Source: an uncultured Holophagaceae bacterium (GTDB taxonomy: Bacteria; Acidobacteriota; Holophagae; Holophagales; Holophagaceae). From it: a stretch of 64,000 nt of DNA. Under the pieces are notes generated by a model. The model was not told the origin of the DNA and did not search any database. It saw nothing but the letters and a program-made list of their open reading frames with translations. The position numbers were made by a program, and so were the translations under genes. Positions within the stretch are counted from its first letter, which is position 1; every line of letters starts with the position of its first letter. The stretch covers positions 1 to 64,000 of the forward strand of contig CAIWKE010000003.1 in NCBI GenBank assembly GCA_903913215.1. The letters run 5' to 3'. Below, piece after piece: positions 47,577 to 51,506 of this stretch.

Positions 47577-49034
47577 CTAGAAGATCATCACCTTCATGGT
47601 GTTCGTGGTGCCGGATTTCCAGAGGGGCAGGCCCATGGTCATCACCACGCGATCCAGGCTGCCCGCCTGATGCTTGGTGATGAGGAGTTCCCGCACCACC
47701 TCCACCATCTCGTCCGTGCTGGCCACGCGCGGGATGATGAGGGCCGTGACGCCCCGCAGCAGGCCCATGCGGCGCCCGGTCACTTCGTCGACGGTGGCCC
47801 CCAGCACGGGCGTGCGACCTGCCAGGCGGCTCACCATGCGGGCCGTGCCGCCGCCCTCGGTGAAGGCCACGATCCAGCGGGCATTGATCTCATCCGCCGT
47901 GCGACAGGCTGCGAAAGCCACAGAGATATCCGTGCGGGCCAGGACCTTTTCCGCCAGTTCCTCGGGCAGGGTGGTGGTGCGCTGCTTGACGTTGGCGTCA
48001 GCCTCCGCGGCGATGCGCGCCAGCCACTGCACAGCCTCCACGGGGTAGGCGCCCGAAGCACTCTCGGCGCTGAGCATCACAGCGTCCGTGCCGTCCCAGA
48101 TGGCATTGGCCACATCGCTGGCTTCAGCCCGGGTGGGCTGGGCGTGCTCGATCATGCTCTCCAGCATCTGCGTGGCCGTAATGACGGGCTTCAGGGCGCG
48201 GCGGGCAGCCTTGATGATCTGCTTTTGAAGTGCCGGGACGCGCTCGACGCCCAACTCCACGCCCAGGTCGCCCCGGGCCACCATGACGCCCCATGAGACG
48301 TCCAGGATCTCGCCCAGGTGGGCCAAGGCGGCGGGATGCTCGATCTTCGCGATGACCGGCTGAGTGCCGCCCAGGTGGTGGATGATGGCCTGCAATTGCT
48401 GCACGTCCGAGGCCCGGCGTACGAAGCTCTGGGCGAAGAGGTCCACCTGGTGTTCCACGCCCCACCGGATGTCCACATGATCCTTTTCCGTGAGGGGATC
48501 CATGGCGATATCCAGCCCAATGGGATGCAACCCCTTCCGGGCCTTGAGGGGGCCTCCCACCACCACCTTGGCCTTGAGCAGGTCCGTACCCTTGGCCAGG
48601 ATCTGGATGGTGATGGCGCCGTCATCCAGCAGCCAGTGCTGTCCGGGTTCGGCGCCTTCGAAGAGTTCCGGGTGCGGCAGGGGCACGGCCCAGGTGGCGC
48701 CCACGGGCGCGGGGGTGCCGGGCAGGAAGAAGAACCCCTCGCTGCCTTCCGCCAGATCCACCGGGACTTCCAGCAGGCCCACCCGCCACTTCGGTCCCTG
48801 CAGATCCAGGAAAACCGGAATGGAGCGACCCAGTTCCACGGCCAGGGCCCGGACCGTGGCCAGGGACTCGGCGCGGGTCACGGGGTCGCCATGGCTGGCG
48901 TTAATGCGCACAGCATCGGCTTCTTTGAGTGCTTCCCGCAGACGATCGCCCTGCATGAGCGCGGGCCCCAAGGTCATCACGAGTTTAGTCTTGCGCACGA
49001 TCGCCCCCAGTTCTTGCACAGGTATTCCACACAC
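47577..49034 (-). CDS. pyk: pyruvate kinase
   Basis: VRINASHGDPVTRAESL, PVIAKIEHPAALAHLGEIL, GVMVARGDLGVELGVERVPALQKQIIKAARRALKPVITATQMLESMIEHAQPTRAEASDVANAIWDGTDAVMLS; start may be GTG 48998. Confidence 0.95.
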   Translation of the reverse strand: MCGIPVQELGAIVRKTKLVMTLGPALMQGDRLREALKEADAVRINASHGDPVTRAESLATVRALAVELGRSIPVFLDLQGPKWRVGLLEVPVDLAEGSEGFFFLPGTPAPVGATWAVPLPHPELFEGAEPGQHWLLDDGAITIQILAKGTDLLKAKVVVGGPLKARKGLHPIGLDIAMDPLTEKDHVDIRWGVEHQVDLFAQSFVRRASDVQQLQAIIHHLGGTQPVIAKIEHPAALAHLGEILDVSWGVMVARGDLGVELGVERVPALQKQIIKAARRALKPVITATQMLESMIEHAQPTRAEASDVANAIWDGTDAVMLSAESASGAYPVEAVQWLARIAAEADANVKQRTTTLPEELAEKVLARTDISVAFAACRTADEINARWIVAFTEGGGTARMVSRLAGRTPVLGATVDEVTGRRMGLLRGVTALIIPRVASTDEMVEVVRELLITKHQAGSLDRVVMTMGLPLWKSGTTNTMKVMIF

Positions 49035-49137: not shown

Positions 49138-49353
49138 ATGCGCGAAAAGCTGCGGACGCTCGTAGCCGAGATGGTTCATGGCGGCATCCCCCTGGAGCTG
49201 GCCCGCCGCGAGTTCGAGCGGGTCTACCTGGAGGAGGTGCTGGCGGCCCACGAGGGCAACCACAGCGCCGCCGCGCGGGAATTGGGCATCCATCGCAACA
49301 CCCTGGCCAAGAAGCTGGAGACGCCCCCCAGTCGCCTGCGCCGCGTGAGCTAG
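49138..49353 (+). CDS. Fis-type helix-turn-helix protein
   Basis: ARREFERVYLEEVLAAHEGNHSAAARELGIHRNTLAKKLE. Confidence 0.88.
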   Translation: MREKLRTLVAEMVHGGIPLELARREFERVYLEEVLAAHEGNHSAAARELGIHRNTLAKKLETPPSRLRRVS

Positions 49354-49449: not shown

Positions 49450-50460
49450 TTGAAGCAGTTAGCCATCAACGGACTGGGACGCATCGGGCGCATGGCCCTG
49501 CGCCACCTTCTGGCCACACCAGGCCTGCGGGTCACGGCCCTCAATGACCGCTGCGACGCCCCCACCCTGGCCCACCTGCTGAAATACGACTCCGTGCACG
49601 GCCGAGCTCCCTTCAGTGTGGCGGTGGCTGGCGAGGACCTGATCCTGGACGGCCAGTTCGTGCGGGTGTTTCGGGAAGTGACGCCGGGGCGCGTCCCCTT
49701 TGGCGAGACTGGCGCTCGCGTGGTGCTGGAGTGCACCGGCCAGTTCACCCAGCGCGCCCAGGCCGCAGCCCACCTCAAGGGCAGTGTGGGCCACGTGCTC
49801 ATCAGCGCCCTGTCCGAGGACGCGGACCGCACCGTGGTCCTGGGCCTCAATGACGAGCTGCTGGACCTCGACCGCGACCGCGTGATCTCCAGTGCCAGCG
49901 GCACCACCCAGGGCCTGGCCCCCCTGGTGAAGGTCCTGGATCAGGTCTTCGGCCTGGACTATGGCTTTGTGACTGCCGTGCACAGCTACACCACAGAACA
50001 GCGCATCCTGGACCTGCCCCACCCGGATCTGCGCCGGGCTCGCGCCGCGGCCACCAACATGATCCCCACTACCAGCCGGGCCGCCGGGGCCATGGGCCTG
50101 CTGCTGCCTCACCTCCGGGGCCGCCTGGAAGGGCTTTCGGTACGGGTGCCCACACCGGATGTGAGCCTCGTGGACCTCACAGCCACCCTATGCTCGGACG
50201 TGTCCATGGAGGGCCTGCAGGCGGCCTTCCGCCACGCCGCCGAGAGCGGTCCCCTGGCCCCCTATCTGGAGGTGCTGGACGCCGAACTGGTGAGTGTGGA
50301 TCTGGTGGGCAACCGCGCCAGCTGCCTCTACGACCCCTTCCTCTCCAAAGTGCTGGGGCCCCGGCTGGTGAAGGTCTTCGGCTGGTACGACAACGAGTGC
50401 GGCTACGCGGCCCGGCTCTGCGACCTCTGTCTGCGCGTAATGGAAGGGGCGCAGCCATGA
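49450..50460 (+). CDS. GAPDH-like protein lacking the catalytic cysteine
   Basis: INGLGRIGRMALRHLL; VISSASGTTQGLAPLVKVLDQVFGLDYGFVTAVHSYTTEQ, with Gly at the SNASC-T-T position; FGWYDNECGYAARLCDL. Confidence 0.9.
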   Translation: MKQLAINGLGRIGRMALRHLLATPGLRVTALNDRCDAPTLAHLLKYDSVHGRAPFSVAVAGEDLILDGQFVRVFREVTPGRVPFGETGARVVLECTGQFTQRAQAAAHLKGSVGHVLISALSEDADRTVVLGLNDELLDLDRDRVISSASGTTQGLAPLVKVLDQVFGLDYGFVTAVHSYTTEQRILDLPHPDLRRARAAATNMIPTTSRAAGAMGLLLPHLRGRLEGLSVRVPTPDVSLVDLTATLCSDVSMEGLQAAFRHAAESGPLAPYLEVLDAELVSVDLVGNRASCLYDPFLSKVLGPRLVKVFGWYDNECGYAARLCDLCLRVMEGAQP

Positions 50461-51506
50461 ACGCCCATCCGCCCCATCCACTCCATCCCTTGCACCCCAG
50501 GACCATCGCCATCAACGGCCTGGGCCGCATCGGACGCCTGGCTGTCCGGCGCCTAGGCGCCGCGCCCGAGGAACTGCTGGCCGCCGTGAACGATCCAGCC
50601 CCCCTGGACCAGGTGCTCCACTTGCTGCGCCAGGATTCGGTGCACGGCCGCAGTGCCCTGCCCATCGAGGGCCACACGGAGGCGGGTCAGGACTACCTGC
50701 TGCTGGGCGCCCGGATGGTGCCGCTCTACCACGAGCCCGACCCCGCCCTGATCCCCTTCCCCGAAGCCACCCGCCTGGTGGTGGAGGCCAGCGGGCGCTT
50801 CACCAGCCGCACCGCCGCCGCCCAACACCTGAAGGGTGCCGTGTCCCACGTGCTCATCAGCTCTCCCAGCCCCGACGCCGACTTCACGGCCATCGCCCCA
50901 GTGAATGGCGAGGAGCTGGACCCCAGGCGCCACCGCATCATCTCCAACGCAAGCTGCACCGCCCACGCCACGGCCCCCATGCTGAAGATCCTGGACGAGG
51001 CCTTCGGCCTGGATGCCGCGGGCATGAGCACTGTGCACGTGGTCACCAATGACCAGCGCCTCCTGGACCAGGCCCACCCGGACCGCCGCCGGGGCCGCGC
51101 GGCCTTCCAGAGCATCATCCCCACTACCTCCAGCGCCTTCGGCGCCCTGCACCGGGCCCTGCCTGACCTGCCGCCGGGCTTCGACGGCGTGGCCGTGCGC
51201 GTGCCCGTGCTGAGCGTGAACCTGGTGGACCTGGTGGCCACCCTGCGGCACGACACGGACCTCGAGGGTGTGAAGGCCGCCTTCGCCCGCGCCGCCGCTG
51301 GCCCCTGGCGGGGCCTCGTGGCCCTGGCCGACCCCCACACCGTCAGCTGTGATATCACCGGCCGCAGCGAAAGCGTCATCGTAGATCTCGACCTCACCCA
51401 CCTGCTGGGGCGGCGCTTCGTGAAGGTCCTCGGCTGGCACGACAACGAAACCGGCTACGCCGCCCGGCTCTGCGACCTCGTGGTGGACCTGGCCGGGCGG
51501 ATTTGA
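50457..51506 (+). CDS. GAPDH/erythrose-4-phosphate dehydrogenase-like protein
   Basis: INGLGRIGRLAVRRLG; IISNASCTAHATAPMLKILDEAFGLDAAGMSTVHVVTNDQRLLDQAHPDRRRGRAAFQSIIPTTSSA; ATGA overlap with upstream gene. Confidence 0.9.
   Translation: MNAHPPHPLHPLHPRTIAINGLGRIGRLAVRRLGAAPEELLAAVNDPAPLDQVLHLLRQDSVHGRSALPIEGHTEAGQDYLLLGARMVPLYHEPDPALIPFPEATRLVVEASGRFTSRTAAAQHLKGAVSHVLISSPSPDADFTAIAPVNGEELDPRRHRIISNASCTAHATAPMLKILDEAFGLDAAGMSTVHVVTNDQRLLDQAHPDRRRGRAAFQSIIPTTSSAFGALHRALPDLPPGFDGVAVRVPVLSVNLVDLVATLRHDTDLEGVKAAFARAAAGPWRGLVALADPHTVSCDITGRSESVIVDLDLTHLLGRRFVKVLGWHDNETGYAARLCDLVVDLAGRI

Follow-up and report, generated by a model that had tools for sequence, protein, structure and literature searches.

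A tandem pair of GAPDH-fold genes in Geothrix and its relatives whose first member has repeatedly lost the catalytic cysteine

The window, a 64,000-nucleotide stretch of DNA from an uncultured Holophagaceae bacterium, contains two GAPDH-fold genes, here called A and B, and in the first of these the catalytic Cys is replaced by Gly. Comparison across the family shows that Cys loss is not fixed in the pair; it has happened repeatedly, in particular lineages, where a further GAPDH is present. We interpret A and B as the halves of a tandem duplication whose products would form a hetero-oligomeric GAPDH-type enzyme, with the Cys-less (dead) form of A serving as a non-catalytic partner, and from the comparisons below we put the probability of this reading at about 0.6. 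The features of the locus are as follows.

47577..49034, minus strand: divergent pyruvate kinase, a conserved neighbour (the same in G007, G070, G059 and G072)
49138..49353, plus strand: small Fis-type helix-turn-helix protein directly upstream of A (C-terminal part of an open reading frame)
49450..50460, plus strand: gene A, GAPDH-fold, catalytic Cys replaced by Gly, a pseudo-GAPDH in the window's genome (open reading frame and translation, Pfam, AlphaFold model)
49900..49902, plus strand: GGC codon for Gly151 of A, at the catalytic Cys149 position (sequence, alignment)
49987..50058, plus strand: S-loop of A, the inter-subunit loop, approximately residues 180-203 (retention in Cys-less A, low-confidence segments of the monomer model)
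50457..50460, plus strand: ATGA overlap of the A stop and B start (sequence; a four-base overlap or few-base gap is usual in relatives)
50457..51506, plus strand: gene B, GAPDH-fold paralogue with intact Cys, His and Arg and the diagnostic SNASCTAHATAP motif
50955..50957, plus strand: TGC codon for Cys167 of B, the catalytic Cys (sequence, conservation among B proteins)
51069..51074, plus strand: Gln205-Ala206 of B, corresponding to GAPDH positions 187-188, which adjoin the coenzyme of the neighbouring subunit

Gene A starts with TTG and encodes 336 amino acids, and gene B starts with ATG and encodes 349; both reading frames and their ATGA overlap are as the sequence-only reading described them, and the overlap is likely to reflect translational coupling. 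The first part of B (50457-50501) encodes an extra His-Pro-rich stretch (MNAHPPHPLHPLHPRT) that is absent from most other Geothrix B proteins, and it is possible that a downstream TTG is the true start.

A and B each match both Pfam GAPDH domains (PF00044 and PF02800) over their full length, and they share the fold and the NAD-site and Ps-site residues of type I phosphorylating GAPDHs (GapA/GapB). They differ from these enzymes in that A lacks Cys149 and both proteins score below the cut-off of the curated GAPDH-I model (325.7 bits for A and 291.6 for B, against 367.2), although GAPDH-I is still the best model for B; the Cys-bearing A of Geothrix fermentans is above the cut-off at 402.7 bits. 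The active-site stretch of A reads V-I-S-S-A-S-G-T-T-Q, while the NAD-site motifs, the His region (VHSYTTEQ, with the His176 equivalent), the Arg231 equivalent (RVPTP) and the WYDNE motif are all kept, confirming the initial description of A as a GAPDH-fold protein that has exchanged its nucleophile for Gly. B was likewise correctly described as retaining Cys but departing from TTN: Cys149, His176 and Arg231 are all present, and the departures from type I GAPDH are TAH for TTN, Ser for Gly209 and His for Tyr in WYDNE. These changes to phosphate-site residues (TAH, and Ser for Gly209) suggest that the substrate of B may be altered relative to type I GAPDH.

The sequence-only reading had also regarded B as Epd-like, and this does not hold. 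The curated E4PD model gives 249.8 bits for A and 230.6 for B against a cut-off of 530.55, and the motifs that characterise the Epd-like protein from Zobellella (L106) are missing from B. An arsenate (ArsJ-associated) GAPDH was similarly rejected, with 278.7 and 238.8 bits for A and B against a cut-off of 450. The E4PD scores, and the missing Epd-like motifs, also make it very unlikely that B serves vitamin B6 synthesis as an erythrose-4-phosphate dehydrogenase with A as its scaffold. PdxJ, a marker of the route that uses erythrose-4-phosphate, is present in all 11 genomes tested, as that proposal would predict, but it is also found in G051 and G052, which do not have the pair, and is therefore uninformative on a link to vitamin B6.

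The window's A, modelled as a monomer with AlphaFold (pLDDT 88.5, pTM 0.87), superimposes on Bacillus stearothermophilus GAPDH with a TM score of 0.92, and the best fold matches are Cys149 mutants of that enzyme with NAD+. Because Cys149Ala and Cys149Ser GAPDHs have been crystallised with NAD+ (1npt, 1nq5), loss of the Cys need not damage either the fold or NAD binding. The very-low-confidence segments of the model, residues 182-191 and 194-203, lie inside the S-loop, as would be expected of a loop that is ordered only in an oligomer.

A and B are adjacent and in the same order in 56 of the 77 family genomes surveyed (Geothrix and relatives), and in two more (G032 and G068) B lies at the edge of a contig and the tail of A can be read immediately upstream. 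A is thus never apart from B in any of the 58 genomes having either gene, and none of the 77 has only one of the two, although this co-occurrence partly reflects inheritance as one operon. Carriers include Geothrix fermentans, G. campi, G. oryzisoli, G. limicola, G. rubra, G. terrae, G. paludis and G. fuzhouensis; both genes are missing from four genera and from some genomes of genera that otherwise carry the pair, and no B was found in the other two families of the class at an E value of 1e-70. A tree of 116 GAPDHs groups A and B as sisters (100% SH-aLRT) and sets canonical gapA apart as another lineage, and although these are quick-search trees in which exact placements are less certain than the overall pattern, the sister grouping indicates that the pair arose by duplication inside the Geothrix family.

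The order of divergent pyruvate kinase, Fis-type protein and A-B is conserved, and in genera g9 and g10 canonical gapA is in the same run, ahead of the pair. The Fis-type gene is also upstream of A-B in G007, G070 and G072; its position between the divergent pyruvate kinase and the GAPDH genes is kept across genera, making it a candidate regulator of the glycolysis locus. The spacing between the A stop and B start is a four-base overlap or a few bases in most genomes. In Cys-bearing Geothrix loci (L007, L013, L021, L024 and others) A and B are in the same frame, separated by a single stop codon and three bases; the stop is mostly TAG (TAA in G014 and G036), and read-through would yield an A-B fusion.

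The pairing is conserved among relatives that have either gene, but the Cys-to-Gly change is not. Among 54 distinct A proteins the Cys is present in 31 and lost in 23, where it is replaced by Gly, Asp, Ser, Ala or Pro; the A of one genus has lost His176 too (VESYG). The SCTAH core of B is invariant in all 57 distinct B proteins. At least nine changes are needed to account for the Cys state of A on the B tree. It had been proposed that orthologues with Cys would mark the Gly as a strain-specific mutation or a sequencing error. Such orthologues do exist, but both explanations can be rejected, as there are 23 distinct Cys-less A proteins, several of them from complete genomes, and recurrent, independent loss with different replacing residues and changed neighbours is not what sequencing error produces.

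Loss of the Cys tends to go with the presence of a canonical gapA. Where the assemblies lack gapA, A keeps Cys in 18 cases and has lost it in three, against 13 kept and 20 lost where gapA is present (Fisher p = 0.0016 for the 54 A proteins), and in genomes of at least 90% completeness the kept and lost counts are 12 and 2 without gapA and 8 and 17 with it (Fisher p = 0.002); because the lineages are related, these p values overstate the case. A phylogenetically paired test was non-significant with too few independent pairs, and when G046, G069 and G071 are omitted no pair runs against the association. Those three fragmented MAGs are the only genomes in which a dead A was found without gapA. 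The G069 contig stops 158 bases beyond A, and in a sister genome the distance to gapA is 72 bases; the G071 contig stops 1.6 kb beyond A and its sister has gapA 2.4 kb away.

In complete or near-complete genomes such as G011, G021, G036 and that of G. fermentans (G007) the pair is the sole type I GAPDH, and in these A has its Cys. B is never the sole Cys-bearing GAPDH in well-assembled genomes, which suggests that B alone may not serve glycolysis. All of the gapA copies that we read keep Cys. The canonical gapA of G035 (L184) groups away from those of its neighbours in the B tree, a hint of horizontal replacement. The window's genome has two further Cys-bearing GAPDHs. One is the canonical gapA that the sequence-only reading had expected elsewhere in the genome, on contig C20, and the other is a long form of 480 amino acids on the 7.6 kb contig C31 (7629 bases). 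The long form is 100% identical to a sequence on contig C98 of G045, a genome that also has a second long-GAPDH copy at 91%; binning contamination or recent transfer are both possible.

Dead A could be a dying gene that is kept for now solely through translational coupling to B. The ATGA or near-zero spacing seen in most genomes would allow this, and A does evolve faster after losing its Cys: its distance relative to that of B is 0.66 where gapA is absent (A is slower than B) and averages 1.04, rising to 1.7, where Cys is lost (A is as fast or faster), with a Mann-Whitney p of 1e-4 that is not corrected for relatedness. However, none of the 23 distinct Cys-less A genes has a frameshift or stop, and NG86 dN/dS between pairs of Cys-less A genes is 0.13-0.27, with higher values (0.46-0.55) confined to two distant pairs within a single genus, and thus well below 1. 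The intact frames and dN/dS values argue against a pseudogene, and by these sequence measures the dead A genes appear to be under purifying selection.

What is retained in Cys-less A is also not random. At columns conserved in Cys-bearing A, and with position classes assigned from general GAPDH knowledge, retention is 60% for catalytic and phosphate positions, 90% for NAD positions, 97% for the S-loop and 86% elsewhere. That S-loop and NAD residues persist across deep divergences weighs further against a dying gene, a reading that we regard as quite unlikely. The decay of phosphate-site residues near the Cys bears on another proposal, that Cys-less A is an enzyme with a different, Cys-independent chemistry. 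Most Cys-less A proteins do keep the His176 and Arg231 equivalents, but the residue replacing Cys varies among G, D, S, A and P and one clade has lost the His, and we consider such chemistry highly improbable.

The S-loop of GAPDH forms a subunit interface, and Ser188 touches the coenzyme of the adjacent subunit (PMC9287727; also PMC3824636). All 54 A proteins, with or without the Cys, retain L187-P188. Positions 187-188 of B are Leu-Pro in Geothrix whose A has Cys, and L187 of B is changed in 14 of the 16 Geothrix with a dead A (to Q, R, G, A, S or T) and in none of the 22 with a Cys-bearing A, placing it first among 216 testable B columns for association with loss of the Cys in A. Counted as events on the Geothrix tree, all five losses of B L187 occur on branches with a dead A, and these account for 46% of branch length (branch-based p = 0.02, uncorrected), and for the whole family the corresponding losses are six and three (p = 0.07, uncorrected). 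The link fails outside Geothrix, where one clade with a Cys-bearing A has Ala187 and one dead-A clade keeps Leu187. An independent-pairs test of Cys loss against B L187 is consistent in direction without the three fragmented MAGs, with too few pairs. Taken as a predefined region, the B S-loop shows enrichment at p = 0.06; the strongest 24-column window of B is 166-189, with p = 8e-5 before correction for about 300 windows. The B L187 pattern is suggestive, and would fit an arrangement in which the S-loop of B borders the coenzyme site of A and is freed once A is inactive.

These data also bear on whether A might be an independent NAD-binding protein that moonlights or acts as a sensor, and no subunit of B. 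GAPDH-fold proteins moonlight in many organisms, and the 90% retention of NAD-site residues in dead A is in keeping with such a role. However, A is never found without B, its best retained segment is the inter-subunit S-loop, and in Geothrix the S-loop of B varies with the Cys state of A, and we therefore think a free-standing role unlikely. The sequence-only proposal that A is a pseudoenzyme in this genome is upheld, and a role as the partner of B is plausible, with recurrent Cys loss, purifying selection, invariant pairing and S-loop retention all speaking for it.

In the hetero-oligomer reading, A and B would come together at the interface bearing the S-loops. In cells without canonical gapA, such as those of Geothrix fermentans, the Cys-bearing A would be the glycolytic GAPDH and would have to stay catalytic; where gapA carries the flux, as in the window's genome, the active site of A would be free to decay. 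Dead A would be kept because its fold and S-loop are still needed by B, with the S-loop of A being given to a neighbouring B subunit and completing or stabilising its coenzyme site. The comparisons themselves establish the Cys loss and its recurrence, the pairing, the purifying selection, the pattern of retained residues and the distribution of gapA; from these we infer physical assembly of A with B, activation of B by A, and the nature of B's substrate.

Another adjacent pair of GAPDH genes is present in other Acidobacteriota, several Bacteroidota MAGs and one Ca. Eisenbacteria MAG (L100:4586-6609, where the genes overlap, and L101, L102, L103, L105 and L121-L140). As with A-B, the first member is degenerate and the second intact, but here the second member is fully canonical, whereas B is not. 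The first members form their own clade (99% SH-aLRT) and have lost Cys in 13 of 24 cases, R231 in 20 and G209 in 23; all 24 second members retain Cys, His, R231 and G209. As the degenerate first members form a separate clade, the combination of a degenerate first gene with an intact second gene most likely arose at least twice.

There are precedents for parts of this arrangement. Chloroplast A2B2 GAPDH has two paralogous subunits (plant GapA and GapB) in each tetramer, as proposed for A-B assembly. Both plant subunits keep the catalytic Cys. B also differs from the chloroplast enzyme in having no C-terminal regulatory extension, ending at VVDLAGRI after the GAPDH domain. In the prozymes of trypanosomes (the AdoMetDC prozyme and the dead deoxyhypusine synthase paralogue), as proposed here, a dead paralogue is kept as a needed partner, and trypanosome deoxyhypusine synthase shows a 3000-fold rise in activity in the heterotetramer with its dead paralogue (PMC3663545). 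Those systems involve other folds and other organisms, whereas A-B is one overlapping bacterial gene pair with repeated Cys loss in A. Judged by sequence, dead A resembles a prozyme: it is under purifying selection and is the inactive paralogue of an enzyme that is intact, and by analogy dead A may be a prozyme-like activating partner of B.

Few enzymes have been studied as thoroughly as GAPDH, whose catalytic Cys is regarded as near-invariant. Searches of open-licence papers gave no report of a pseudo-GAPDH partner, or of relevant GAPDH work in Geothrix, which is not proof of absence. A broader proposal is more tentative, and we give it somewhat less than an even chance. It holds that the GAPDH is an obligate hetero-oligomer, that one of its subunits has repeatedly turned into a pure pseudoenzyme whose S-loop serves the coenzyme site of the live subunit, and that such an architecture arose at least twice independently in bacteria, in the Geothrix family and in the other Acidobacteriota, Bacteroidota and Eisenbacteria. 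If this is true, pseudo-GAPDH partners would be a recurrent and overlooked means of building or regulating a central enzyme of glycolysis. Annotation of the A and B genes as GAPDH can mislead. The A lineage offers a natural gradation from enzyme to pseudoenzyme, with a Cys-bearing sole GAPDH, a Cys-bearing redundant copy, a Cys-less copy, and a copy without Cys and His all present in living species, so that it is testable whether redundancy or the need of a partner comes first in the birth of a pseudoenzyme.
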